NCBI GenBank assembly: GCA_036381035.1
Contig: DASVDQ010000007.1
Span: 1-42,663 of the forward strand
DNA length: 42,663 nt
Direction of reading: 5' to 3'
Source: Trueperaceae bacterium
GTDB taxonomy: Bacteria > Deinococcota > Deinococci > Deinococcales > Trueperaceae
Both the position numbers and the translations under genes were made by a program. Positions 6,187 through 37,994 of the stretch are shown here, one piece after another. The notes under the pieces are model-generated. The model had not been told where the DNA came from. It made no database searches and saw nothing but the letters and a program-made list of their open reading frames with translations. How positions within the stretch are numbered: position 1 is the stretch's first letter; each line of letters starts with the position of its first letter.

Positions 6187-7557
6187 TCACCAGCGGCTCT
6201 CGAACCGGCGTCTGAGGTACGACGCCAGCGAGTAGAGCACGACGAGGACGAGGAGCAGCACCACGATGGCCGCCGAGGCGACGTGGAGGAACTCGGCGTC
6301 GTTCTCGGAGACCCAGGTGTAGACCTGGATGGGGATCGCGGTGAAGAGCGCGAGTGGTCCGTCGGGCGGACGCGGCACGAACGCCGCCGCGCCGATCACG
6401 ATCAGCGGCGCCGTCTCGCCGATCGCCCTGGCGACGGCCAGTATCACGCCCGTCACGATGCCGCCCACGGCGTTGGGCAGGACGACGCGGGCGACGACCT
6501 GCGAGCGCGTGGCCCCCAGGCCGTAGGCGGCCTGGCGCAGGCTGTCGGGCACGGCGCGGATCGCCTCGCGCGCCGCCACCACGACGACCGGCACGACCAG
6601 CAGGGTCAGCGTGAGCGCGCCGGCCAGCACGACGGGGCCGAGGCGGAGCAGCCTGACGAACACGCTCAGCCCGAGGATGCCGTAGACGACGCTGGGCACG
6701 CCGGCCAGGTTCGCGAGGTTCAGCTCGACGAGGCGGGCGAAGCGGGTGTGCGGCGCGTACTCCTCGAGGTAGACGGCCGTGCCCACGCCGAGCGGCACCG
6801 ACATGACGATGACGAGGGCGACGAGCAGCAGGCTCCCGGCGAGGGCGGGCAGCAGGCCCGCCACCGACGGCGAGCGCGAGGCGTTCCTCGCGAGGAACGA
6901 CGCGTCGAGCCAGGCGTTGAGCACGACGACCTGCCCCGGCTCGGCCCGCTCCAGCAGCTCGCGTCGCCGCCGCAGGCCCTCGAACAGCGGCAGGTCGGCG
7001 ACGCGCTCGTCGCGGCTCGAGGTCACGATCCACCTCAGCGGCCTGCCGTCGACCCACGGCATCAGTTCGACGCGGTTGCGCGCGCCGAAGACGCGTCGCG
7101 CCTCGCGGTCGCTCAGGAGCGCCGCGACCTCGTCCTCCGTCAGGCCCTGGGCGCGCAGCTCGAGCCGCACGACGTTGTCCCAGGTGCGGAAGAACGCGAA
7201 GCCCTCGAGGAAGGAGAAGCTCTGACCAGAGTTCCGCGGCTCGATCACCTGCCACGAGAAGCTGTCCGTCACCACGTCGAACAGCAGCGTCGCGAGCAGC
7301 GCCAGCGCGAGCAGCACGGGCACCGCGACGGCCGTGCCGAAGGCGCGCGCGCCGGCGCGCCGGCGGCGCGCCTGCACGCCCCCCAGGTCGAGCATGTCGG
7401 GGCGCTCGGGGCGGTCCGACGGCTGCGGCCCCGCCCGCCGTCCCCTGCGCCGCGGACGTACGGGCCCCTCGGGGCGCCCCGCGAGGTCCGCCCGCTCGGC
7501 CGAGGACGCCTCGTCCGGCGCCGGGCGCCGGGGCTCCCGCCCGCCGTCGCCCCTCAC
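6187..7557 (-). CDS. pstA: Phosphate ABC transporter permease PstA with extended N-terminus and large insert
   Basis: PstA is one of two membrane subunits of the phosphate importer. At 456 residues it is much longer than the usual 280-300. Residues 1-70 are Arg/Pro-rich. The first membrane helix lies at about 73-95. A hydrophilic segment of roughly 140 residues (about 96-235), presumably outside the membrane, precedes the conserved permease core. That core carries PLGVGTAVYLEEYAP, GVPSVVYGILGL and the EAA-like RQAAYGLGATRSQVV, which contacts PstB. The GTG start at 7557 overlaps the pstC stop (GTGA). An ATG at 7395 (MLDLGGVQ) is an alternative that would drop the basic leader, but it lacks a ribosome-binding site. 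Family assignment is firm; the role of the insert is unknown. Confidence 0.92.
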   Translation of the reverse strand: MRGDGGREPRRPAPDEASSAERADLAGRPEGPVRPRRRGRRAGPQPSDRPERPDMLDLGGVQARRRRAGARAFGTAVAVPVLLALALLATLLFDVVTDSFSWQVIEPRNSGQSFSFLEGFAFFRTWDNVVRLELRAQGLTEDEVAALLSDREARRVFGARNRVELMPWVDGRPLRWIVTSSRDERVADLPLFEGLRRRRELLERAEPGQVVVLNAWLDASFLARNASRSPSVAGLLPALAGSLLLVALVIVMSVPLGVGTAVYLEEYAPHTRFARLVELNLANLAGVPSVVYGILGLSVFVRLLRLGPVVLAGALTLTLLVVPVVVVAAREAIRAVPDSLRQAAYGLGATRSQVVARVVLPNAVGGIVTGVILAVARAIGETAPLIVIGAAAFVPRPPDGPLALFTAIPIQVYTWVSENDAEFLHVASAAIVVLLLVLVVLYSLASYLRRRFESRW

Positions 7558-8477
7558 TCGTAGCGCTCCCGGTAGCGGCCCACCACGAGCTGCGAGGCGA
7601 GGTTGAGGAGCAGCGTGATCACGAACAGCGTGGCGGCCACCGCGTAGAGGGAGCGCGACGCCAACGACCCGGCGGGCTGGTCACCGGTGGCCGCCTGGAC
7701 GATGAACGCGGTCATCGTCGCGATCGTCTCGCGCGGGTCGAGCGTGAACAGCGGCCGCTGGCCGGCCGCCAGCGTGACGATCATCGTCTCCCCCACCGCC
7801 CGCGCCATCGCCAGGACCACCGAGGCGACGATCCCGGAGAGGGCCGCGGGCAGCACGACGCGGGATATCAGCTGCACCTTCGTCGCCCCCAGCCCGTAGG
7901 CGGCCTGGCGCAGCGACGACGGCACCGCCTGCATCGCGTCGGTGGAGATGCTCGACACCGTGGGGAGGACCATGAAGCCCATGACGAGGCCCGCGGAGAG
8001 CGGGTTGAACAGGTTCAGTCCGGGCACCACGCGCTGCAGCAGCGGCGTGACGTAGAGCAGCGCGAAGTAGCCGAACACGACCGTGGGCACGCCGGCGAGG
8101 AGCTCGAGCAGCGCCGTCACGCGCCGCCGCCGGCCGGGCGGCGCGAACTCGGAGAGGTAGACGGCGCTCGCCAGGCCCAGGGGCACGCCCACCGCGAGCG
8201 CGATGGCCGTGACGAGGAACGTGCCGGTCAGCAGGGGGAGGATGCCGAAGCTGCGGTCGGCGAAGAGGGGCGTCCAGCGCGTGGAGGTGAAGAACTCGCG
8301 GAGCGTGACGGCCGGGTCGGCGAAGAACGCGGTGGTCTCGCCCAGCAGCACGGCGACGACGCCGAAGGTCGTCAGCACCGACACGCCGGCGCAGAGCAGC
8401 AGCAGGCCGCGCACCAGCCGCTCGCGCGCCCTCGCCCGCCGACCGAGCCGCAGCGGGGCCGCGCCCGTCCTCGTCAC
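7554..8477 (-). CDS. pstC: Phosphate ABC transporter permease PstC
   Basis: PstC pairs with PstA to form the phosphate channel. The 307-residue protein has six predicted membrane helices. It carries the binding-protein-dependent permease motifs PLGLASAVYLSEFAP, AGVPTVVFGYFAL and the EAA loop RQAAYGLGATKVQLI, followed by ARAVGETMIV, all characteristic of PstC. The GTG start at 8477 has GGGAGGGG just upstream. The stop overlaps pstA (GTGA). It lies second in pstSCAB, about 50 bp after pstS. Length and motif order are normal for the family. Confidence 0.96.
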   Translation of the reverse strand: MTRTGAAPLRLGRRARARERLVRGLLLLCAGVSVLTTFGVVAVLLGETTAFFADPAVTLREFFTSTRWTPLFADRSFGILPLLTGTFLVTAIALAVGVPLGLASAVYLSEFAPPGRRRRVTALLELLAGVPTVVFGYFALLYVTPLLQRVVPGLNLFNPLSAGLVMGFMVLPTVSSISTDAMQAVPSSLRQAAYGLGATKVQLISRVVLPAALSGIVASVVLAMARAVGETMIVTLAAGQRPLFTLDPRETIATMTAFIVQAATGDQPAGSLASRSLYAVAATLFVITLLLNLASQLVVGRYRERYE

Positions 8478-8525
8478 GCCTCGCCCCTCCCGGCCCGCCC
8501 GCCGCGCGGGGAGCCCACGCCGCGG

Positions 8526-9485
8526 TCAGTCGCCCCGCACGGCCTCGAGCACGGAGTCGCCGGGCTCGAAGTCGGCGAACGCCGAGCCGGTGACGCGGTC
8601 CTCGAAGCGCTGCAGGGTGGCGGCGTAGACGTCATCGCCGTAGGTAGCGTAACCGGAGTCGGCGATGAGCTCGCGGTTGCGCTCGTCCAGGTAGAACCGC
8701 ACGAAGGCCTGCACCTCTGGTCTCTCGGCCGACCTGGCGCTGACGTAGACGAACAGCGGCCGGGACAGCGGCGTGTAGGTGTTCGCCTCTATGCTCTCGG
8801 CGCTCGGCGCCACGCAGCCGTCGCCGCCGTCGACCTCGAGCGCCCTCACGCGCGAGGCGTTCTCGACGTAGTAGGCGAAGCCGAGGTAGCCGAGCGCGTA
8901 GCGGTCCCCCTCGACGCCGGTGACCAGCACGTTGTCGTCCTCGCTGGGGAAGAAGTCGGTGCGCACGGCGCCGGCCTCGCCGTTCACGGCCTCGGTGAAG
9001 TAGTCGAAGGTCCCGGAGTCCGTGCCGGGGCCGTAGAGGACGATCTCCTCGTCGGGCCACCCGGGCCGCACGTCGCTCCACAGACGCACCCGCGAGCCCG
9101 GCTCCCAGATCGCCCGCAGCTCCGCGACGGTGAGGCACCTGGCGAAGTCGTTGGCCGCGTTGACGACGACCGTGATCGCGTCGGCGGCGACGGGCAGCTC
9201 GATGACCGCGATGCCGTGCGCCGCGCAGGCCTCGAGCTCCTCCTCCTTCACCGCGCGCGAGGCGTCGGCGACGTCGATCTCGCCGGCGCAGAGCTTGGAG
9301 AGACCGCCGCCGGTGCCGGAGAACGCCACCGCGATGCCGACGTCCGGGTTCTCGATCGAGAACTCCTCGGCCATCGCCAGCGAGATCGGGTAGACGGTCG
9401 ACGACCCGTCGACGCGGAGGGACTGGGCCGCGGCGAGGCCGAGCAGCGCGATCGCGAGGGGGAGCGCGGCGTGAGCGCTTCTCAA
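8526..9485 (-). CDS. pstS: Periplasmic phosphate-binding protein PstS
   Basis: PstS captures phosphate outside the inner membrane and delivers it to PstCA. The mature part starts with LRVDGSSTVYPIS, the classic PstS phosphate-binding strand. SGTGGGLSKLCAGEIDVADA and YGPGTDSGTFDYF follow, supplying Ser/Thr/Asp phosphate contacts. I place the start at TTG 9485 (319 residues). A perfect GGAGGT sits 5 nt upstream, and the product then begins with a compact signal peptide ending near GLAAAQS (signal peptidase I type, no lipobox). A longer reading from 9635 would add about 50 Arg/Pro-rich residues before the signal peptide and is unlikely. It is first in the pst operon. Cys residues at CAGE and CAAHG could form a disulfide. 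Confidence 0.94.
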   Translation of the reverse strand: MRSAHAALPLAIALLGLAAAQSLRVDGSSTVYPISLAMAEEFSIENPDVGIAVAFSGTGGGLSKLCAGEIDVADASRAVKEEELEACAAHGIAVIELPVAADAITVVVNAANDFARCLTVAELRAIWEPGSRVRLWSDVRPGWPDEEIVLYGPGTDSGTFDYFTEAVNGEAGAVRTDFFPSEDDNVLVTGVEGDRYALGYLGFAYYVENASRVRALEVDGGDGCVAPSAESIEANTYTPLSRPLFVYVSARSAERPEVQAFVRFYLDERNRELIADSGYATYGDDVYAATLQRFEDRVTGSAFADFEPGDSVLEAVRGD

Positions 9486-9503
9486 GCGGACCTCCGAGGG
9501 TGA

Positions 9504-9533
9504 CGGCGAGGCCGTGGCGTCACGGCCTCGTCG
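9504..9533. promoter_or_regulatory. Strong inverted repeat in the pstS leader / pstS-hutI divergent region
   Basis: CGAGGCCGTG (9507-9516) and CACGGCCTCG (9521-9530) form a perfect 10-bp stem with a GCGT loop. One G-U and two G-C pairs extend it to 13 pairs. It sits 18 nt before the pstS start, just 5' of its Shine-Dalgarno. It could be an operator or an mRNA structure; no Pho-box-like repeat was recognised. Confidence 0.45.
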
Positions 9534-9581
9534 GGGTGCGGGCCGGGGACGCGCCGGGTAAGGGCGCGGGCGGGCCCGGGG

Positions 9582-9587
9582 TATCCT
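9582..9587 (+). promoter_or_regulatory. Putative -10 box (TATCCT) of hutI, leaderless-type
   Basis: TATCCT lies 10 nt before the GTG start at 9598, so transcription would begin within a few bases of the start codon. No Shine-Dalgarno fits between them. No -35 is evident. Confidence 0.5.
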
Positions 9588-9597
9588 CGCCCAAGTC

Positions 9598-10806
9598 GTG
9601 GACGCTAGCAAGGGCCCCTGCCTCGTCACCGGCATCGCGGAGCTCTACACGCCTCACGAGCGCGTAGAGGACGCGGCGTTCGTCGTCGACGGCGGGCGCT
9701 TCGGCTGGGTGGGCCGGTCCGCCGAGGCGCCGCCCGAGGCGCACGCGCTGCCGCGGGTCGACCTGGGCGGGCGCGGCGTGCTGCCCGGCCTCGTCGACAG
9801 CCACACGCACCTCGTGTGGGACGGCAGCCGCGTCGCCGAGTACGCGCTGCGGTCGCAGGGCGCCTCGTACGAGGCGCTGCTCGCTTCCGGCGGCGGCATC
9901 CACGCGACCGTCAGGGCCACCAGGTCCGCCGGCGACGAGCGGCTCCACGGGCTGGCGCGGCGGCGCGCGGCGGCGTTCCTCCGCGGCGGCGTCACGACCC
10001 TCGAGGTCAAGTCGGGCTACGGGCTGACCACGGAGGAGGAGCTGCGACAGCTCGCCGTCGCGCGGCGGCTCGGCGACGAGGGGCCACAGCGCTTGACGAC
10101 CACGCTGCTGGCGCACGTGCCCGACCCCGAGGTCGACCGCGCCTACCACGTCGACAGGCTCGTGGCCGAGACGGTGCCGGAGGCCGCCGCGCGCGGCCTC
10201 GCCGACGCCGTCGACGTCTTCGTCGACAGGGGCGCCTTCACGCTCGACGAGGCGCGCAGGGTGCTGGAGGCCGGCCTCGCGGCGGGCCTCCAGGTCAAGG
10301 CGCACGCCGAGCAGCTCACGCGCACGGGCGCGGCCCGGCTCGTCGCCGAGCTGGGCGGCGTCTCGGCCGACCACCTGGAGCGCGCCACCGACGAGGACTT
10401 CGCGGCGCTGGCGGCGGCGGGCGTGGTGGCCACGGTGCTGCCGGGCGCGGCCGCCGTGCTGGGCGCCGGCCTGCCGGCGCCGGAGCGCTTCCGCGCCGCC
10501 GGCGTGAAGGTCGCCGTCGCCAGCGACCACAACCCCGGCTCGAGCCCGCTCTTCGGCCTGCTGCCGGCCCTGCAGCTCGCCGTGGCCGTCTACGGCTTCA
10601 CCGTCGACGAGACGCTGGTGGGCGCGACCGCGCACGCCGCCGACGCGCTGCGCCTGCCCGACGTGGGGCGCATCCGGCCCGGCGCGCACGCCGACTTCGT
10701 CGTGGCCGACGGACCGGAGGCGCTGCTGCCCCTCTACGGCTGGGGCGAGCCTCTCGTGCACGAGGTCGTGATCGGCGGCGTCACCGCCTGGCGCCGCGGG
10801 GGCTGA
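9598..10806 (+). CDS. hutI: Imidazolonepropionase (histidine degradation)
   Basis: HutI hydrolyses 4-imidazolone-5-propionate to N-formimino-L-glutamate, the third step of histidine catabolism. The 402-residue protein shows the amidohydrolase metal motif DSHTHLVWDGSR, then GGGI, KSGYGLTTEEEL, HAEQL (metal or substrate histidine), ADHLE, LPGAAAVL and SDHNPGSSP, in the order and spacing of the family. The GTG start at 9598 follows a -10-like TATCCT by 10 nt. The gene is transcribed divergently from pst and convergently with the amidohydrolase at 10875. No hutH, hutU or hutG is nearby, so the rest of the pathway, if present, is elsewhere. Confidence 0.95.
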   Translation: MDASKGPCLVTGIAELYTPHERVEDAAFVVDGGRFGWVGRSAEAPPEAHALPRVDLGGRGVLPGLVDSHTHLVWDGSRVAEYALRSQGASYEALLASGGGIHATVRATRSAGDERLHGLARRRAAAFLRGGVTTLEVKSGYGLTTEEELRQLAVARRLGDEGPQRLTTTLLAHVPDPEVDRAYHVDRLVAETVPEAAARGLADAVDVFVDRGAFTLDEARRVLEAGLAAGLQVKAHAEQLTRTGAARLVAELGGVSADHLERATDEDFAALAAAGVVATVLPGAAAVLGAGLPAPERFRAAGVKVAVASDHNPGSSPLFGLLPALQLAVAVYGFTVDETLVGATAHAADALRLPDVGRIRPGAHADFVVADGPEALLPLYGWGEPLVHEVVIGGVTAWRRGG

Positions 10807-10836
10807 GGCGGCCGGCCTCCGCTCGGCGACGGTAGG

Positions 10837-10864
10837 GCGGTCCCGCGGACGCGCGCGGGACCGC
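10837..10864. terminator. Bidirectional hairpin between hutI and the amidohydrolase gene
   Basis: GCGGTCCCGCG (10837-10847) and CGCGGGACCGC (10854-10864) make a perfect 11-bp stem with a 6-nt loop in the 68-bp gap between convergent genes. There is no long T-run, but position and stability suggest it ends both transcripts. Confidence 0.6.
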
Positions 10865-10874
10865 GCCACGCTGA

Positions 10875-12461
10875 CTACAGCTCGCCGTACGTGAACACGC
10901 CGCCCTTGACCGTCGCGACCACAGCGAGGCCGTCGAGGCTGACGAGCGGGTCGTGCGACAGCACGACCATGTCGGCGTCGTAGCCCACGGCGAGGCGTCC
11001 CGACCGGCTCTCCCAGCCGATCGCGTAGGCGGCGCCGGCCGTGTACGCCAGCAGCGCCTCGTCGGGCGAGACGGCCTCGGCCGGGTTCAGCCTCTCGCCG
11101 CCCAGGCCGAGGCGGCGGCAGGCGGCGCGCAGGCCGGTGGGCACGTCGGGCGAGGCCACGGGGGTGTCCGAGCCGAACGCCAGCCTCGCTCCGGACCTCG
11201 CCAGGGAGCGCAGCGGGTAGGCGCGCTCGACGCGGTCCGCCAGCAGCGTCCCGATGGCCCCGGCGTCGAAGGTCAGGTGGATCGGCTGCACCGAGGCGAC
11301 CACGCCGAGGCGCCGGAAGCGCGGCAGGTCGCTCGGGTGGACGTGCTGGGCGTGCTCGAGGCGCGGGCGCAGGCCCGCCGCCTCCAGCTCCGCGGCGGAC
11401 GCCTCGAAGGCGTCGAGTACCGCGCGCACGGCGGCGTCGCCGATCGCGTGCACGACGGGCGCGAGCCCGGCGCGAACCGCCAGCGGCACCCTCTCGGCGA
11501 GGACCTCGGGCCCGTCGACGGCCATGCCCACGTCGGCGGTGCCGGCGTAGGGCTCGAGCATCCACGCGGTCTTGCTCCCGAGGGCGCCGTCGGCGAAGAA
11601 CTTCGCGCCGCCCACCTGGAAGTTGCGCCCACCCTGGCCCGTGGCGAGGCCGACCTCGGCCGCGGCCTCGAGCTGCTCCTGCGGCACGCAGGCCCACACC
11701 CTGAGCGGGTAGGCGTCGTCGCTGGCGGCGAGCGCCAGCTCCCGGAAGTACCCGGCGGGCTCGGCGGCCATGTGGTGCACGGTCGTGACGCCGCGCGCGG
11801 CCAGCGACTCGCCCGCGGCGGCCAGCGCCCGCCGCAGCTCGTCGCGTCCCGGCGCCGGGACCGCGTCGGCCACGAGGCGCCTGGCGGCCTCGAGGAGCAG
11901 GCCCGTCGGCCGGCCCCCCTCGTCCCTCACGACCACGCCGTCGGCCGGGTCCGGCGTGCCCTCCCCCACGCCGGCGCGCGCCAGCAGGGCGGCGCTGGCC
12001 CAGGCCGAGTGGTGGTCCTGGCTCGCCACGAGGGCCGGCCGGCCGCCCACCGCCTCCTCGAGCGCGTCGGCCTCGCCCCTGCCGATCGTGCGCAGGCCCC
12101 AGGTGTTCAGCGCCATGCCGGTCGCGCGCAGCAGCTCACCCGCGCCGAGGTCCGCCGCGTGGCGCCTCAGCAGGTCGAGGGCGTCGTCGAACGTGCGCGC
12201 GGGGGCGAGGTCGAGGCGCGAGAGCTCGAGGCCGTGCTGGGTGAGGTGGACGTGGGAGTCGTGGAAACCGGGCATGAGGCAGGCTCCGCCCAGCTCGAAG
12301 ACCTCCGTCTCCGGCCCGGCCAGCTCGTGCAGCTCGCTCGGCGAGCCGAGCGCGAGGACGCGTCCGCCGCGCACGGCCACGCCCCCCTCGCGCGGGCGAG
12401 AGGGGTCCATCGTCAGCACCGAGCCGAGGAAGATCGCGTCGGCGTGGGCCGTCACGCTCAC
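10875..12461 (-). CDS. Amidohydrolase of the YtcJ / amidohydrolase-3 family
   Basis: This is a predicted metal-dependent hydrolase of an amide or related C-N bond; the substrate is unknown. The 528-residue protein has a small N-terminal beta domain, the HxH metal motif in GFHDSHVHL (residues 70 and 72), KFFADGALGSKTAWM, HAIGDAAV, LEHAQHVHPSD, the barrel-end aspartate in FGSDTPVASPDVP, and a closing YDADMVVLSHDPL. This pattern is typical of YtcJ-like exoenzymes and of N-substituted formamide deformylase. The GTG start at 12461 overlaps the stop of the upstream enoyl-CoA hydratase (GTGA). The same frame stays open upstream, but that part is only a shadow of the neighbouring gene. Annotated relatives are often mis-called imidazolonepropionase because of motif similarity. 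Confidence 0.88.
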   Translation of the reverse strand: MSVTAHADAIFLGSVLTMDPSRPREGGVAVRGGRVLALGSPSELHELAGPETEVFELGGACLMPGFHDSHVHLTQHGLELSRLDLAPARTFDDALDLLRRHAADLGAGELLRATGMALNTWGLRTIGRGEADALEEAVGGRPALVASQDHHSAWASAALLARAGVGEGTPDPADGVVVRDEGGRPTGLLLEAARRLVADAVPAPGRDELRRALAAAGESLAARGVTTVHHMAAEPAGYFRELALAASDDAYPLRVWACVPQEQLEAAAEVGLATGQGGRNFQVGGAKFFADGALGSKTAWMLEPYAGTADVGMAVDGPEVLAERVPLAVRAGLAPVVHAIGDAAVRAVLDAFEASAAELEAAGLRPRLEHAQHVHPSDLPRFRRLGVVASVQPIHLTFDAGAIGTLLADRVERAYPLRSLARSGARLAFGSDTPVASPDVPTGLRAACRRLGLGGERLNPAEAVSPDEALLAYTAGAAYAIGWESRSGRLAVGYDADMVVLSHDPLVSLDGLAVVATVKGGVFTYGEL

Positions 12462-13234
12462 GCCCCCGTGAACGACGGCGCGCGCTTGGCGCGGAACGCC
12501 GCCACGCCCTCCCGGGCGTCGCGGCTGGAGGCGGCGCGCGCCTGCGCGGCGGCCTCGAGGGCCAGCTGCTCCTCGAGGTCGTTGGCCAGCGTGGCGCGGA
12601 GCTGCCGCTTCACCAGCGCGTAGCTCAGCGTCGGGCCGGCGGCGAGGCCCTTCACCAGCTCCCAGACGGCCTCGGCGAAGCCCTCCGCCGGCAGGACCCG
12701 CTCGACGAGGCCGATCGCCTTGGCCTCCTCGGCGCCCAGGCGGGCGTTGCCGAGCGCCAGGTCCATCGTCCGCCCCACGCCGATCAGCCGCGGGAGGTGG
12801 TAGCTGCAGCCGGCGTCCATGACCAGCCCGATCGCCGTGAAGCCGAGGGCGAAGAGCGCCGCGCTGGAGGCCACGCGCAGGTCGCAGGCGGCGGCGAGGC
12901 TGAGCCCCGCCCCCGCGGCCACGCCGTTCACGCCCGCCACGACGGGCTTGTCGAGGTCGACGATCGCGCGCACGACCGGGTGGTATGCGAGCTCGAGGAG
13001 CGCGCCGATGTCCTCGTCGACGGGGGTCGCGGCGAGGTCGGCGCCGGCGCAGAACCCGCGGCCCTCGCCGGTGAGGAGGACCGCGCGCACCGCGGGGTCC
13101 GCCGCCTCGCCGGTGAGCGCGGCGGAGAGCTCCTCCAGCGTGCGGGGCGTGAGGGCGTTGAGCACCTCGGGGCGGTCGATGACGATGCGGAGCGCGGGCC
13201 CCTCGCGCTCCAGGCGCAGGTCCTCGTAGGCCAT
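12458..13234 (-). CDS. Enoyl-CoA hydratase/isomerase family protein (PaaG-like)
   Basis: This is a crotonase-fold enzyme acting on acyl-CoA thioesters. The 258-residue length is standard. Oxyanion-hole segments are GEGRGFCAGADL and NGVAAGAGLSLA. The region GLVMDAGCSYHLPRLIG keeps the Asp used by PaaG-type isomerases and lacks the usual glutamate pattern of classical hydratases. A PaaG-like 2-(1,2-epoxy-1,2-dihydrophenyl)acetyl-CoA isomerase is therefore a reasonable guess, but no paa genes are nearby. The ATG start at 13234 lies 9 bp after the RNHCP gene, with no Shine-Dalgarno but with a TAGACT box 6 nt upstream. It is coupled to the amidohydrolase by a GTGA overlap. Substrate is uncertain; fold and family are secure. 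Confidence 0.92.
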   Translation of the reverse strand: MAYEDLRLEREGPALRIVIDRPEVLNALTPRTLEELSAALTGEAADPAVRAVLLTGEGRGFCAGADLAATPVDEDIGALLELAYHPVVRAIVDLDKPVVAGVNGVAAGAGLSLAAACDLRVASSAALFALGFTAIGLVMDAGCSYHLPRLIGVGRTMDLALGNARLGAEEAKAIGLVERVLPAEGFAEAVWELVKGLAAGPTLSYALVKRQLRATLANDLEEQLALEAAAQARAASSRDAREGVAAFRAKRAPSFTGA

Positions 13235-13240
13235 GCCGCG

Positions 13241-13246
13241 AGTCTA
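13241..13246 (-). promoter_or_regulatory. Putative internal -10 box (TAGACT) for the enoyl-CoA hydratase gene
   Basis: TAGACT on the minus strand ends 6 nt before ATG 13234. Its first three bases are the TAG stop codon of the RNHCP gene. The same hexamer with a 7-nt spacer precedes the rluD-type gene at 39045. Confidence 0.4.
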
Positions 13247-13588
13247 CATCCGGTGCGGGACGGCTCCGGCGGCCACCCTGGCGAGGGCGGCGACGTCGTC
13301 CGGTTGGCGCGGGTCCTCGAGCGCGGCCTTGTTGCGCCTCACCTCGCCGCAGCGGCGGCAGCGGTGCACGACCACCCAGCCCTTCTTGCCGGTCAGCTCG
13401 GCGCCCACGGGCTCCATCACGCCGCCGCAGTCGTTCGCGCGGTCGCCGGGGTTCACGTCGACGTGCAGCGAGCAGAGGCAGTAGGGGCAGTGGTTGCGGT
13501 AGCCGCCGGAGACGAGGGGCAGGACGTCCGCGCCGCACTCGGCGCAGGTGAAGGGCCGGTTCGCGCCCTGGCCGACGAAGCGCTTCAC
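13244..13588 (-). CDS. RNHCP domain zinc-ribbon-like protein
   Basis: A small 114-residue protein named after its own motif, RNHCPYCLCSLHVD (about residues 32-45). Pairs of cysteines in FTCAECG, CPYC and HRCRRCGEVRRNK look like zinc-ribbon ligands. The family (RNHCP) is widespread, but its function is unknown; nucleic-acid binding is a guess from the zinc-ribbon look and the basic surface. The GTG start at 13588 is chosen because the conserved N-terminus KRFVGQGANRPFTC begins there and TATGCT lies 8 nt upstream. It is followed after 9 bp by the enoyl-CoA hydratase gene. A longer open frame upstream is a shadow of the ABC-F gene. Confidence 0.85.
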   Translation of the reverse strand: MKRFVGQGANRPFTCAECGADVLPLVSGGYRNHCPYCLCSLHVDVNPGDRANDCGGVMEPVGAELTGKKGWVVVHRCRRCGEVRRNKAALEDPRQPDDVAALARVAAGAVPHRM

Positions 13589-31742: not shown

Positions 31743-32804
31743 GTGCCCAAGCGCCTGGCCCGATCGCTGCTGCGTGAGACCGCGGGCCTCTACCTCTTGG
31801 GCGTCGCGGCGATCTGCCTGCTGCAGAGCGTCGACATGCTCTCCGTGCTGGCGCGCTTCCTGGTGCAGAACCAGGCGACGCTCGCCGACACCGGCCGCCT
31901 GCTCCTCTACAAGCTGCCCTGGTTCCTCCACCTCGGCCTGCCCGTGGCCGTCGTCTTCGCCGTGCTGCTGGCCTGCGGGCGCATGGCGAAGGACTCCGAG
32001 CTGAAGGCCGCCTACTCCTCTGGCATCGCGCCCCGCACGCTGTTCTGGCCGCTGGCGGCGTTCGGCCTCGCCGTGGGCGCCGTCAGCCTCGTCAACAACG
32101 GCTTCCTCGAGGCCCGCGCCGAGGCCGCCTACCAGGCGAAGGTCGACGAGTACCTCTACGTCAGGCCGCCCTCCGAGCTGCAGGTGAACGCCGCCTACGC
32201 CTACGAGGGCGGCGTCTTCTACGCGTCGCGCATGCGCTCGACGCCGGAGGACCCGAGCGTCGCCCGGCTCTCCGGCGTCCTCGTCGTGCGGCCGGACGGC
32301 ACCGTCCTCACGGCGCTCGACGGCGAGTGGGACTCCCGCGAGCGCGTCTGGCGGCTGTTCGCCGCCGAGCGCACGCCGCCGGGCGGACGACCGGAGGGCG
32401 CCGGCTCGGTGACGGTGCCCTTCGCCCTGGAGGCGACCCCGGCGCAGACGCTCACGAGGCCGGCGGAGCTGCCGCTCGACCAGCTCGTGGCGCGCATGCG
32501 CACCGTCGCCGCGGCCGGCGGCGACACGCGCGAGCTGCGCTACGACCTGCACCGTCGCCTGGCCGACGCCCTCAGCGCGCCGATCTTCGCCGCCTTCGCC
32601 GCGGCGATCGCGCTGCGCGTGCGCGGGCGCGAGGCCGGCTTCGCCTGGACGATCGTGCTCATGGTCCTGTTCTGGGCCACGTGGGTACTCTCCGGCGACC
32701 TCTTCACGTCGGGGGCGCTGGGCCCCGTCGTGGCGGCCTGGCTGACGCCCGCGGCGGCCGGCGCCGGCGCGGCGCTCGTGGCGGCGAGGACGCTGCCCGG
32801 ATGA
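31743..32804 (+). CDS. lptF: LptF/LptG family permease (first copy)
   Basis: LptF and LptG form the inner-membrane part of the ABC machine that lifts lipopolysaccharide from the membrane. The 353-residue protein has the family layout. Two helices come first (about 14-35 and 55-80), then ACGRMAKDSELKAAYSSGIAP, which matches the coupling-helix region, and another helix. A periplasmic beta domain of about 150 residues follows, then a C-terminal block of helices (RLADALSAPIFAAFAAAIAL). The GTG start at 31743 follows TATACT by 6 nt. It overlaps lptG by ATGA. Whether it is LptF or LptG is decided only by position; the two are paralogous. The substrate in this phylum is uncertain. Confidence 0.88.
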   Translation: MPKRLARSLLRETAGLYLLGVAAICLLQSVDMLSVLARFLVQNQATLADTGRLLLYKLPWFLHLGLPVAVVFAVLLACGRMAKDSELKAAYSSGIAPRTLFWPLAAFGLAVGAVSLVNNGFLEARAEAAYQAKVDEYLYVRPPSELQVNAAYAYEGGVFYASRMRSTPEDPSVARLSGVLVVRPDGTVLTALDGEWDSRERVWRLFAAERTPPGGRPEGAGSVTVPFALEATPAQTLTRPAELPLDQLVARMRTVAAAGGDTRELRYDLHRRLADALSAPIFAAFAAAIALRVRGREAGFAWTIVLMVLFWATWVLSGDLFTSGALGPVVAAWLTPAAAGAGAALVAARTLPG

Positions 32805-33871
32805 ACCGCTTCTCCCGCTACCTGCTCCGCGAGGTCATGCCGCTCTTCGTCGCCGCCCTCGTGGCGCTGCTCCTGCTCCTGATGCTGGCCGCCCTGCTCG
32901 GCGTTCTCGCCGACGCGCTGGCGCGCGGCGTGCCGCCCGGGCTGGTGGCGCGCTACATGCTCCTCAAGCTGCCCGCCGCCGTCGGTCCCGGCCTGCCCCT
33001 GGCGCTGCTCTTCGCGGCCCTCGTCGCCCTCACGCGGCTCGGGCAGGACGGCGAGGTGAAGGCGGCCCTGCTGCTGGGCATCGGCCCGCAGCGCTTCGCC
33101 TTCCCCGTCCTGGCGCTGGGCCTGGTCGTGAGCGCCGCCGCCTTCCTCAACAACGAGCTCGTCGTGCCCCGCAGCGAGCGCCTGGCGGGCGAGGTCGAGC
33201 GCGACATCCTGCTCCTCTCGCCCGAGACGGTCCTCGTCGAGGGCGCGTTCTTCACCGACGCGCTGGGCCGCAGCATCTTCATCGGCGCCATCGAGCCGGG
33301 CGGGCGGTTCGAGGACGTCACCGTCATCACCCCCGGCACCAGCCGCGGCCCGCGCGAGCTGATCAGGGCCGAGCTGGGCCGGGCCCGCCCCGACGAGGGC
33401 GTCTGGGAGCTGGAGGGCATCAGGTTCCAGGCGCTGCGGGACTCGGAGCTCACCCTCGACATCGCCGCCGCCGAGGCCGTGCTGCCGGTGCGGGGCCTCA
33501 CGGCGCGCAGCAGCGCCGTCAGCGACCTCGTCTACCTGCCGCTGGGGGAGCTCGTCGCGCGCATCCGCGCCGCCGGTGACGCCGAGGCGCCCGCGGAGCG
33601 CACCGCCCTGCAGCGCAAGTTCGCCGAGCCCCTGGCGGCCACGGCCTTCGCGCTGTTCGCCGTCGCGCTCGGCCTCTACACGTTCCGCAGCGGCGCGAAC
33701 ATCGGCTTCGTGGCGGCGATGCTCCTGACCTTCGTCTACTACGCGACCTGGAGCGTGACGAAGCTGCTGGGGGCGCAGGGCACGATCCCGCCGTGGCTGG
33801 CGGCCTGGACGCCCGTCGCGCTCTACGCCGGCGGCGGCCTGATGCTGCTCGCGCTCGCCAGGAGGCGCTGA
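32801..33871 (+). CDS. lptG: LptF/LptG family permease (second copy)
   Basis: The partner permease, 356 residues, begins MNRFSRYLLREVMPLFVAA, the typical basic-then-hydrophobic start of the family. The conserved coupling region is TRLGQDGEVKAALLLGIGPQ. A periplasmic beta-jellyroll-like domain (about 120-260) follows, then terminal helices with KFAEPLAATAFALFAVALGL. It overlaps lptF by ATGA and shares one base with the LptD-like gene (TGATG), so all three are translationally coupled. Together with lptF it would form the heterodimeric permease; the matching ATPase (LptB) is not in the window. Confidence 0.88.
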   Translation: MNRFSRYLLREVMPLFVAALVALLLLLMLAALLGVLADALARGVPPGLVARYMLLKLPAAVGPGLPLALLFAALVALTRLGQDGEVKAALLLGIGPQRFAFPVLALGLVVSAAAFLNNELVVPRSERLAGEVERDILLLSPETVLVEGAFFTDALGRSIFIGAIEPGGRFEDVTVITPGTSRGPRELIRAELGRARPDEGVWELEGIRFQALRDSELTLDIAAAEAVLPVRGLTARSSAVSDLVYLPLGELVARIRAAGDAEAPAERTALQRKFAEPLAATAFALFAVALGLYTFRSGANIGFVAAMLLTFVYYATWSVTKLLGAQGTIPPWLAAWTPVALYAGGGLMLLALARRR

Positions 33872-36756
33872 TGCGCGCCCTGGCGCTGCTCCTGCTGGCG
33901 CTGTGCGCCGGCTGGGCCGGCGCCGCGCGCATCGTCATCGACGCCGCGCACGACCCGGAGAGCCGCCTCGAGATACGCTCCGTCACGCTGCCGGGCGGCG
34001 AGGCGGTGCAGGTCTACGTCCTCACGGGCCGCGGACTGACGGTGCGCATCGACGACGACGTCCTCGTCGCCGACCACGTCGAGTTCGACCTGACGCGGCG
34101 CATCGTGCGCGTCGTCGGCCGCGGCTCCTTCACGCGGGGCGCCGAGACGATCGAGGGCGACGACCTCGTCATAGACCTCGGCCGCGAGAGCCTCGAGGGC
34201 AGCGACGTGCTCATCGTCACGCCAGAGATCGACGTGAGCGGCGACAGCGCCAGCCGCGTGCCCGGCATGATCGCCATCGCCCTGGGCGAGTTCTCGCCGT
34301 GCGGACGCTGCGGGCAGGAGGTCGAGGACTACGGCTTCAGGGCCGAGCGCATCGAGCTCTACCCCGGTGACCGGCTCGTGGCCCACGGCGTCACCGTGCT
34401 GATCAGGGAGCGCCCCGCGTTCGCCGTGCCGCTGCTGGTGCTGCCCCTCGGCCCCGAGGACCGGCGTCCCCGCCTGCTCTACGAGACCGGCACGGCGACG
34501 TCCCGGGCGCGCATCGAGCTCACCTGGCCGTACGTGGCCGGCCCCGACGCGCGCGGATCCGTGACGCTGCGCTACCACGCCGACGTCGAGCCGGGCGCGT
34601 CGCGCCTCGGCGACGCGCTCCTCGGCGGCGCCGTGCGGCGCTCCTACTTCGGCGTGAGGCTCGACCACGCCTTCTACACCGAGCGCGGCGCCGGCGACCT
34701 CGTCGTCGACCTCACGCCCGGCTACGTCGAGCCGGACGGCTGGCGCCCGCCGCGCTGGACCGTCACCTTCTCCTACGCCGACGACCCGCTGCTCGGTCCG
34801 CCCACGAACGAGGTGCTGCTGCAGCGCGACGACGAGGAGCGCCCGTTCCTCTGGGAGGCGACCCTCAGGTCGCGGCGCGTCGGCTCGGGCGTCGACGCCC
34901 TCTTCTCGAGCCAGGTGTTCGTCGACCTCGAGCCCGCCGACGAGGTCGACAGGCCCTCCTACGCCGGCGGGCGCACGCCGCTGCTCACGCCGGCGCGCCT
35001 CGAGCTGCGCCCCGAGGTCGCGCCCCTCGAGCTCGGCGCGCTCACCGTCGACGACCTCCTCCTCGACCTCGGCGTGTTCGAGGACCGCAGCAACCCCACG
35101 AACCGCTCGGCGGCGCTCACGCCCACGGTCGGCACCGGCAGGGCGCTCGAGTCGCACGCGCTGTCGCTCGGCCCGCTCGACCTGTGGAGCGGCGCGAGCC
35201 TGAGCGCCCGCACCGACTTCAGCGGCTACTACTACGGCACCGGCGAGAGGCAGGTGGACTGGCTGACGCGCGCGACCGCCGAGCAGTCGTTCGGCGGCGT
35301 CGGCTCGTTGTCGCTGACCTTCACCCGCGACGTCACCGAGGGCGAGACGCCGTTCAGCTTCGACACCCTGGCCTACCGCGCCCGCACCGACCTCCTGGCC
35401 GCCCTGCTCCTCGACCCGGCCCCGTGGCTGCGCTTCCAGCAGCGCGGCGGCTACGTCTTCCTCGACGACCGCAACCCCGACTCCGAGGGCTGGGCGCCGC
35501 TGGAGACGACGGTGACGCTGCTGGGGAACGTCGACTGGGTGACCCTGACGGCCCGCAACGCCTACGACCTGCAGGACGGCGACCCCGGCGTCATCGACCT
35601 AGACCTGGCCCTGCGCTCGCGCGGCACGTTCCGCGCCGGCCTCGAGGTCTCCCACGTCGAGGACCTGAAGGTCACCGAGGACAGGATCACCGGCCTGCCG
35701 ACCGACGACTCCGAGACGTCGGTGAGGCTCACGGCCGGCGTGCCCGGCGCCTTCGACCTCGAGGTCAGGACGGCCTACCGCTACGCGCCCCCGCCCCCGG
35801 AGCCGGGCGAGCCGCCCGACCACTTCGACGACCTCAGCCTCAGCCTCACCATCGGCACGCTGGGGCAGGATGACGGCGTGCCGGGACTATCGCTCGACTA
35901 CGCACGAGACCTGGACCGCGGCGAGTTGAGCGCTTTCGGCGTCGAGCTCACCGGCCGCGTCGGGCCCGTGAACCTCTACGCGCTCGAGCGCCTCTCCCTG
36001 CCCGCCGGAAGGGTGGCGCAGAGCCGGCTGCGGGCCGAGTGGCGCGGGGCCGTGGCCGCCGAGGCCAGGGGGCTCGAGTGGCTGCCGCCCGGCGCGGTCG
36101 GCCTGCCGACCCCCGACCCTTACTCCCGCGACCTGGAGTTCGCCGTCGAGGACGCCCCGACCGCCGGCGCGCCCACGTGGCGGGCGGCGTTCTCGACGCG
36201 CTTCGACCCCGCGCTCGAGGGCGGCGCGGGCGGCTACAGGGGCTCGACGCTGACGGCGCGGGCCCTCCTCGACTCGCGCGTGATCGGCCCCGCGCGCCTC
36301 AGCGTCGACGGCTTCGCCGAGGTCTCCTGGCGCGACTCCCTCCAGCCCGTGACCTACCTGAGGCGCGCGAACCTCCAGTTCGGCGTCGACCTCTACGAGC
36401 GCGTGGGGCTGCAGGGCACCGTCGGCTACGCGGCCTCCTTCAGCCAGTCCACGCAGGAGGTGACGAGCGCGCAGCTCACGCTCACCGACGTCGCCCTGGT
36501 CGTGAGGCCCCTGGACGAGCTCTACCTCGGCGTCGTGGTGGACGACGTCTGGGACCTCACCGGCAACGACCCCTCCAGGTCCTTCGCGCTCCAGCCGGAG
36601 TTCACGGTCGTGTGGAACAGGTGCTGCTGGGCGCTCTACGGCTCCTGGGACAGCGCCACCGGCCAGGTCTCGATCACGCTGACGACGCCCGGCGCCGACC
36701 AGGGCCTGCAGCAGGTGTTCGGCACCGGCCTCCTGCTGCCGGGGAGCGAGCCGTGA
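33871..36756 (+). CDS. lptD: LptD-like outer membrane protein (OstA domain plus beta-barrel)
   Basis: A large exported protein (961 residues) with a signal peptide ending near GWAGA. An OstA/LptA-like beta domain (about 60-200) carries VADHVEFDL, IEGDDLVIDL and YGFRAERIELYPGD, the last being an LptD-like turn. The rest is long, with repeated aromatic-ended beta strands like an outer-membrane barrel. It keeps a cysteine pattern like LptD: CGRC at 144-147 and the CC of NRCCW at 918-919, which in E. coli LptD form disulfides between domains. ATG 33871 shares a base with the lptG stop and has GGAGG 5 nt upstream. The last residue is Pro, not aromatic. Its function in LPS-type transport is inferred from family and operon. 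Confidence 0.82.
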   Translation: MRALALLLLALCAGWAGAARIVIDAAHDPESRLEIRSVTLPGGEAVQVYVLTGRGLTVRIDDDVLVADHVEFDLTRRIVRVVGRGSFTRGAETIEGDDLVIDLGRESLEGSDVLIVTPEIDVSGDSASRVPGMIAIALGEFSPCGRCGQEVEDYGFRAERIELYPGDRLVAHGVTVLIRERPAFAVPLLVLPLGPEDRRPRLLYETGTATSRARIELTWPYVAGPDARGSVTLRYHADVEPGASRLGDALLGGAVRRSYFGVRLDHAFYTERGAGDLVVDLTPGYVEPDGWRPPRWTVTFSYADDPLLGPPTNEVLLQRDDEERPFLWEATLRSRRVGSGVDALFSSQVFVDLEPADEVDRPSYAGGRTPLLTPARLELRPEVAPLELGALTVDDLLLDLGVFEDRSNPTNRSAALTPTVGTGRALESHALSLGPLDLWSGASLSARTDFSGYYYGTGERQVDWLTRATAEQSFGGVGSLSLTFTRDVTEGETPFSFDTLAYRARTDLLAALLLDPAPWLRFQQRGGYVFLDDRNPDSEGWAPLETTVTLLGNVDWVTLTARNAYDLQDGDPGVIDLDLALRSRGTFRAGLEVSHVEDLKVTEDRITGLPTDDSETSVRLTAGVPGAFDLEVRTAYRYAPPPPEPGEPPDHFDDLSLSLTIGTLGQDDGVPGLSLDYARDLDRGELSAFGVELTGRVGPVNLYALERLSLPAGRVAQSRLRAEWRGAVAAEARGLEWLPPGAVGLPTPDPYSRDLEFAVEDAPTAGAPTWRAAFSTRFDPALEGGAGGYRGSTLTARALLDSRVIGPARLSVDGFAEVSWRDSLQPVTYLRRANLQFGVDLYERVGLQGTVGYAASFSQSTQEVTSAQLTLTDVALVVRPLDELYLGVVVDDVWDLTGNDPSRSFALQPEFTVVWNRCCWALYGSWDSATGQVSITLTTPGADQGLQQVFGTGLLLPGSEP

Positions 36757-37994
36757 GGCGGCTGGCGGCGGCGCTGGCCGCAGCGCTGCTGCTCGCCTCG
36801 TGCACCGGCACGAGCGAGCCGCGGCCGACGACGCTGCTGGTCGTCGGCGCGGCGCCGGGCGGCGCGCCGCGGCTGCTGCTCGTGGAGGACGTCACCGAGA
36901 CGGCGCCGCCCGGCGACCCGCGCCTGGTCGTCGTGCCCGGCGGCGCCCGCGACCTGCCCGCGCCGGCGGTGGCGCTCGACTTCGAGGAACGCGGGCTCGA
37001 CCGGCCCGCCGCGTGGGTGCTGACGCGCGCGGTCGCCGACAGCGGCGGGACGCCGGCGGTCACCGCCTACCTGCAGCGCTTCGAGGTCGCCGACGTCGAC
37101 CCCACCGACCCGACGGCGTTCGCCGAGGACGCGCCGCGGCGCGTGACGCTCACGGAGCCCGGCGGCTCAGGCGTGCTCGACGGGCGCTCGCCCACCTCCC
37201 CGGCGACGTGCCCGACGGCGCTGCAGGTGGACGAGGACGGCACGTTCGCCGTGGTCCTCGACGACCCGCCGCGCTGCGGGAGCGGCGACCATCCGGAGCT
37301 GTGGCTGGTGCCGCTGAGGCCCGGCCTCGGCCAGCCGCGCTCGCTGCTCGGCACCCAGGACCTCGCGCCCCTGCCGCCGTACCTCGACCAGCGCTCGTCC
37401 GACCAGGTCGTGTACTTCCTGGTGGGGGCGATCGAGCGCACGCACGTCTACGCCCTGCGCGGAGCGGACGACGACGCCGCGCGGCGCCTCGAGGGCGTGA
37501 GCCTGCCCGAGCCGGCCACCGACCTCGCCGCCGCGTCCGGCGCGGGCGACCTGCTGCTCGCCCTGGCGCAGGGCGACCTGCTGGCCACGAACCTCGTGGA
37601 GCCCGGGCCCGCGCTGCGCACCGACACCGTCGACACCGCCGCCGCGCTGGCGGCCGACCCCACGGGCACCGCCCCGGAGGTGCTGGCGCTGGGGGGCGCG
37701 GTCGTGGCGTTCCACGAGGACCCAGAGGACGGCGAGCCGGACACGGCGACCCGGCCGTCCGTGGCCGCGACGATCGACCCGCTCACCCGCTTCGCCTACG
37801 CCGTCGGGGAGGGGCGACTGACGGTCCTCGACCTGCTGACGGGCGGCGACACGGACCGGTCGTTCCAGGCCTACACGGAGCCGCTGCCGGAGCTGGAGCT
37901 GCCCCGCGGCGCGCCGGCCTCCCTGGTGGGCGCCGACTCCGGTCCCGTGACGGTCATCGGCTGGGTGCGGGCGGCGACGCCTCCGGCGCCGTGA
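36753..37994 (+). CDS. Predicted lipoprotein, unrecognised (possible beta-propeller)
   Basis: A 413-residue secreted lipoprotein. The N-terminus is a short basic signal with a clear lipobox LLLASC (Cys at about residue 17). The rest is acidic, beta-rich and repetitive, with several LVVVPGG, LWLVPLRPG and VVAFHEDPEDGEP segments, like a six- or seven-bladed propeller; this reading is tentative. No domain was recognised. The GTG start at 36753 overlaps the LptD-like stop (GTGA), so it is the fourth gene of the lpt operon and may belong to the envelope machine. Its 3' end overlaps plsX tail-to-tail by 41 bp. Confidence 0.7.
   Translation: MRRLAAALAAALLLASCTGTSEPRPTTLLVVGAAPGGAPRLLLVEDVTETAPPGDPRLVVVPGGARDLPAPAVALDFEERGLDRPAAWVLTRAVADSGGTPAVTAYLQRFEVADVDPTDPTAFAEDAPRRVTLTEPGGSGVLDGRSPTSPATCPTALQVDEDGTFAVVLDDPPRCGSGDHPELWLVPLRPGLGQPRSLLGTQDLAPLPPYLDQRSSDQVVYFLVGAIERTHVYALRGADDDAARRLEGVSLPEPATDLAAASGAGDLLLALAQGDLLATNLVEPGPALRTDTVDTAAALAADPTGTAPEVLALGGAVVAFHEDPEDGEPDTATRPSVAATIDPLTRFAYAVGEGRLTVLDLLTGGDTDRSFQAYTEPLPELELPRGAPASLVGADSGPVTVIGWVRAATPPAP

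Follow-up and report, generated by a model that had tools for sequence, protein, structure and literature searches.

Here we report that a compact four-gene operon from a Trueperaceae bacterium encodes, between two Lpt permeases and a lipoprotein, an LptD that has diverged beyond the reach of the standard family models. The window analysed is the whole stretch of 42,663 nucleotides that makes up positions 1 to 42,663 of contig DASVDQ010000007.1 (GenBank assembly GCA_036381035.1). For this operon and for a comparison sample of 61 genomes from one order, which includes Trueperaceae, Thermus composti and Meiothermus taiwanensis, the analysis established computationally how the genes are arranged, that the third gene is homologous to LptD, how far the system is conserved across the order, that the lipoprotein gene is linked to lptD, and which lpx and lpt genes are present or missing. 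Orthologues of the LptD were found in 58 of the 61. We consider it probable that these genes belong to a Deinococcota Lpt bridge with a divergent LptD and a beta-propeller partner, and that its cargo is Lpx-derived in the source organism and another glycolipid in relatives lacking LpxC.

The source genome is a 3.43-Mb assembly with an estimated completeness of 96%. The features of the operon in the window are as follows.

31743..32804, plus strand: lptF, a permease of the LptF/LptG family (353 aa, GTG start, TGA stop; PF03739, 186.6 bits)
32801..33871, plus strand: lptG, a permease of the LptF/LptG family (356 aa, ATG start, TGA stop; PF03739, 241 bits)
33871..36756, plus strand: lptD, divergent (961 aa, ATG to TGA), with an N-terminal LptA-like jelly roll and a large C-terminal beta-barrel
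34288..34311, plus strand: codons of EFSPCGRC in the N-domain of lptD, with C144 and C147; aligns with E. coli SFTSC173
36622..36627, plus strand: codons of C918-C919, the C-terminal cysteine pair of lptD (NRCCWAL); compare E. coli SSCCYAI at 724/725
36753..37994, plus strand: lipoprotein (413 aa, GTG to TGA) with a signal peptide and the lipobox LLASC; the mature protein starts CTGT and is predicted to fold as a beta-propeller

Successive genes overlap by 4 nt (ATGA, lptF/lptG), 1 nt (TGATG, lptG/lptD) and 4 nt (GTGA, lptD/lipoprotein). The first-pass annotation, made from the letters of the window, had described four coupled genes with both Lpt permeases in a probable Deinococcota genome. 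Translation and sequence confirm the coupling, both permeases exceed the PF03739 cut-off of 27.9 bits, and the genome falls within the Trueperaceae, in an order that also holds Thermus and Meiothermus. In a permease tree with E. coli as outgroup, the first-position permeases form one LptF clade across the order (support 100/99), and the LptG proteins form a separate clade, likewise order-wide (96/97). Of 19 loci read in other genomes, 17 have the LptD-like gene linked to lptFG; the remaining two, L063 and L064, both come from family f2. With this linkage, and with the gene present in 58 of the 61 genomes, a chance origin of the operon can be dismissed. In the family f2 loci (L063, 7938-11910; L064, 7283-11214), lptD lies apart from lptFG and 3' of a SpoIID-like-looking gene.

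The third gene product was recognised as LptD only through profile-profile and structure comparison. The window barrel has no meaningful match among the Pfam and NCBIfam models; the Pfam LptD-barrel model, PF04453, matches none of 23 orthologues, and PF03968, which gives no match to the window barrel, matches three of the 23 with a best E of 0.049. Also, a PDB sequence search with the barrel and its profile returned no LptD, and no relative of the barrel turned up among plasmid records. We read the failure of PF04453 and PF03968 as a limit of the models and not of the homology. An LptD set was assembled from E. coli LptD and four distant LptD-like proteins, and hhalign matched the barrel profile to it at 99.7% (E 9.7e-27) over 497 columns, a score to be read with the make-up of the set, in which four of the five sequences were recruited with the barrel family's own profile, one of these four passing the PF03968 cut-off by itself. 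The match to E. coli LptD by itself was weak (2.8%, E 0.017), with the right segment aligned.

Four cysteines, C144, C147, C918 and C919, are invariant in all 23 aligned orthologues. The E. coli protein likewise contains exactly four (C31, C173, C724 and C725); GEFSPC144 of the barrel corresponds to E. coli GSFTSC173, and NRCC918-919WAL resembles SSCC724-725YAI. It is established for E. coli LptD that these cysteines form interdomain disulfides (Ruiz et al. 2010; Chng et al. 2012, both cited in PMC13067283). Furthermore, when an AlphaFold2 model of the barrel (mean pLDDT 86.1, pTM 0.50) was compared with the PDB by Foldseek, hits 1-36 were all LptD, with a best E of 6.5e-16 and about 800 aligned columns. 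Low TM-scores, of 0.2-0.3 to LptD structures, make the predicted overall shape of the barrel unreliable, and the pTM of 0.50 leaves its closure uncertain. Some other outer-membrane barrel might have replaced LptD and acquired the cysteine pattern by convergence, as the missing Pfam and NCBIfam matches and the low TM-scores would allow, but profile and structure comparisons alike match both the N-domain and the barrel to LptD, the LptD cysteine pattern is shared at both ends of the protein, and lptFG linkage holds in most families of the order; we regard such a replacement as highly improbable. The four-cysteine pattern, the profile match and the Foldseek hits thus bear out the earlier description of an LptD-like barrel, and the third gene is LptD.

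The architecture is that of the E. coli and Klebsiella LptD-LptE structures (PDB 5iv9, 8h1s, 4q35), in which LptD likewise combines a jelly roll with a barrel, carries four cysteines, two of them side by side near the C-terminus, and works with LptB, LptF, LptG, LptA and LptC. The differences lie in the N-domain cysteines, which form a CxxC (three residues apart) in the Deinococcota LptD and stand at positions 31 and 173 in E. coli; in length, 961 aa in the window as against 784 in E. coli; and in the fact that the window LptD, unlike that of E. coli, is co-operonic with lptFG and falls outside the Pfam LptD barrel model. Very divergent LptD-like proteins were also seen in Omnitrophota, Armatimonadetes, a Firmicutes MAG (UBA4882) and Atribacteria (L182, L183, L184, L185); most are under the Pfam cut-offs, and in some a lone cysteine (HC) lies close to the C-terminus.

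The lipoprotein that closes the operon gives no meaningful match to Pfam or NCBIfam models. Profiles of its own family and of two other families match each other at 96.8% (E 2.6e-10), and a profile built from the three families matched in 48 of the 61 genomes. No match to this profile was obtained in the remaining 13, which include all of family f5 and most of f2, so the lipoprotein is not required universally. Both genes could be placed in 37 genomes from three families, and in 36 of these the lipoprotein gene comes immediately after lptD, the one exception being a contig-end case; co-occurrence with LptD-like genes was a check that the first-pass annotation had proposed. The structural model (pLDDT 84.6, pTM 0.87) has beta-propellers as its Foldseek matches, namely YncE, AztD, amine dehydrogenase and WD40 proteins. 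LptE (PF04390) was found in none of the 61 genomes, with E. coli, Caulobacter and Bacteroides controls positive.

The lipoprotein had been described earlier as unrelated in size to LptE and as a possible new plug or partner of the barrel. That it is not LptE agrees with the PF04390 result, and a partner role for it is likely because of its linkage to lptD and the gene overlap. The suggested plug does not hold up as well: a predicted beta-propeller of about 400 aa is much larger than LptE, which makes a plug role unlikely, and a position under or beside the barrel appears more likely than one inside it. Where E. coli and Klebsiella have LptE, the Deinococcota operon has a beta-propeller lipoprotein, and we infer that this protein is a candidate LptE replacement. 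A lipoprotein with a predicted propeller fold next to an outer-membrane barrel machine recalls BamB and other beta-propeller outer-membrane lipoproteins, by analogy only; BamB is absent from the top 50 structural hits of the lipoprotein, which is linked to lptD and not to bamA. The lipoprotein might also be just a neighbour transcribed together with lptD, such as a binding protein of the YncE type or an enzyme, and be uninvolved in lipid export. Beta-propellers serve many functions, amine dehydrogenase, YncE and AztD are among the best structural matches, and the protein was not found in 13 of the 61 genomes. Against this stand its place directly behind lptD in three families and, in the window, its translational overlap with lptD, while the other flanking genes vary among families. 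On balance we think the neighbour-only explanation unlikely and favour an LptD partner.

Components of the rest of the bridge are encoded elsewhere in the source genome. LptB scores 329.7 bits, where the equivalog cut-off is 240, and 56 of the 61 genomes have one LptB each above this cut-off. In a three-gene cluster (L107), a protein of 188 aa that has a hydrophobic segment at its N-terminus is encoded together with two OstA-domain proteins, and this type of cluster is kept in all eight loci compared, LpxC-negative ones included. The two OstA-domain proteins match the PF03968, LptC and LptA models, and the 188-aa protein matches none of the three; we read the cluster as a putative LptC followed by two LptA-like proteins, LptC being assigned from position and the hydrophobic segment only. 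The proposed search for lptA, lptB and lptC therefore yielded lptB, LptA-like proteins and a putative lptC, and LptB, the LptA/LptC-like bridge proteins, LptF and LptG are all present in one genome.

A second Lpt-like operon is found in the same genome.

G000:C48 (L109), 6210-10239, minus strand: LptA-like protein, LptD-like barrel and a third LptF/G-type permease

The second barrel, of 709 aa, is encoded 5' of the third permease and shows a cysteine signature like that of the first LptD, with LTTC in its N-domain and ITCC near its C-terminus. Its profile matches that of the first LptD at 97.2% (E 3.7e-11) and that of the LptD set (E. coli LptD plus the four distant sequences) at 80.5% (E 1.3e-5). 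The 226-aa protein, likewise encoded 5' of the permease, has no model match; its sequence pattern and its position are our sole grounds for reading it as LptA-like. The second barrel is matched in 57 of the 61 genomes; it adjoins the third permease in 25 of 34 genomes compared, and in six more the two lie less than 6 kb apart on the same contig. Some of its members (L186, L196) are missing the full cysteine set. Across the order the third permease groups in a clade by itself (support 100/98); as the same holds for LptF and for LptG, the second system is ancient. Given the single LptB above cut-off per genome, both systems may share one ATPase. A DegT/DnrJ-type sugar aminotransferase gene was seen near the second operon in three relatives (L186, 8540-9634; L188, 8854-9960; L194, 3308-4477).

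To establish what such machines might carry, the genes for lipid A synthesis must be considered. The first-pass annotation had started from the reported lack of LPS in Deinococcus and Thermus. For the source organism this premise fails: LpxC is matched at E 6.7e-63 in an lpx cluster, early lipid A synthesis is encoded, and a source organism devoid of lipid A genes was rejected on that match.

G000:C124 (L108), 7544-13527: lpx cluster, lpxD-lpxC-Gfo/Idh oxidoreductase-fabZ-lpxA-lpxB-like, close to mreB

The LpxA, LpxC and LpxD matches are strong and the LpxB match is weak. LpxK and the Kdo transferase KdtA were each found in 0 of the 61 genomes, with the control genomes positive. The pathway comparison covered LpxA, LpxC, LpxD, LpxB, LpxK and KdtA, and over these six steps the full Raetz lipid A pathway is not present in the source genome; of the lpx genes that had been suggested for a search, the early ones were thus recovered and the later ones were not. 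Because LpxK and the Kdo transferase were found in none of the 61 genomes, canonical Kdo-lipid A is unlikely; the product in the source genome is probably not Kdo-lipid A, and probably an unusual lipid A analogue. The oxidoreductase of the cluster scores 154.7 bits against a UDP-GlcNAc 3-dehydrogenase model, under the cut-off of 450, and suggests a modified sugar; together with the DegT/DnrJ-type aminotransferase, it could provide a diamino sugar in a GnnA/GnnB-like manner.

Across the order, LpxC is matched in 42 of the 61 genomes. Among the 19 without a match, some of which are incomplete assemblies and several of which are 97-100% complete, 18 keep LptD and 16 keep the lipoprotein. Since LptD persists in 18 of these 19, the Lpt machine is retained beyond the loss of lipid A synthesis, and in the LpxC-less relatives it must transport something else. 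The alternative glycolipid cargo of the first-pass annotation therefore gains from the missing LpxK and Kdo transferase and from these relatives, and loses its original argument from a lack of LPS. One single-contig genome from the family of the source organism (G016) gives no LpxC match though most of the family is positive; both LptD proteins and the lipoprotein are retained in it, and it may have lost lipid A synthesis recently. The system could still be the standard Lpt pathway exporting ordinary LPS, with LptD and LptE merely too diverged for the family models; LpxA, LpxC, LpxD and an LpxB-like gene are present, and LptB, LptF and LptG are recognised. However, the failure to find LpxK, Kdo transferase or LptE in any of the 61 genomes, with positive controls, and the retention of LptD in genomes without an LpxC match make ordinary LPS export rather improbable.

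The operon would encode the two membrane-bound ends of an Lpt bridge in Deinococcota. Together with the single LptB encoded elsewhere, LptF and LptG would form the inner-membrane ABC extractor, and the LptC-LptA-LptA-like cluster would supply the periplasmic jelly-roll bridge. The lipid would be received by the N-terminal jelly roll of LptD and then put into the outer leaflet by the barrel, the two domains being tied, as in E. coli, by predicted disulfides from the N-domain CxxC to the Cys-Cys pair of the barrel. The beta-propeller lipoprotein would be an outer-membrane-anchored partner in presumed contact with LptD, with an assembly or stabilising role like that of E. coli LptE. The cargo in the source genome would most likely be an Lpx-derived acylated glucosamine, lipid A-like and without Kdo, and in LpxC-less relatives such as Thermus it may be another outer-membrane glycolipid. 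More tentatively, and with somewhat less than even confidence, we propose that Deinococcota have two ancient parallel Lpt-type bridges that share one LptB and carry different glycolipids, at least one of them working after lipid A loss: the first made of LptF, LptG, LptD and a propeller replacing LptE, the second of the LptA-like protein, the LptD-like barrel and the third permease.

A precedent for Lpt without LPS exists in another phylum, in Borrelia burgdorferi, where Lpt orthologues including LptD are kept and glycolipids have been proposed as cargo from modelling (PMC10353723). In contrast to Borrelia, the Deinococcota Lpt system persists across a split between LpxC presence and absence within one order, and has a linked lipoprotein. 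Loss of LPS inside the phylum was proposed earlier (PMC5007114). A survey of "atypical diderms", Deinococcus-Thermus among them, described a reduced Lpt system in which lptD and lptE were never found (PMC8871954); LptE was indeed not found here, but the reported absence of lptD is contradicted by our sequence comparisons, with LptD in 58 of the 61 genomes. No description of a Deinococcota LptD was found in a literature search for which most subscription journals were outside reach.

The absence of LptD from Deinococcus-Thermus has been used within the case for an independently built outer membrane (PMC8871954). The present finding is a genuine surprise at the level of the phylum, yet it is a variant of the known Lpt system. 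The propeller lipoprotein gives a candidate substitute for LptE, and we offer this substitution and the second bridge as hypotheses. The cargo of Lpt machines in the absence of LPS could be studied in Thermus, Meiothermus and Truepera, all of which can be cultured.
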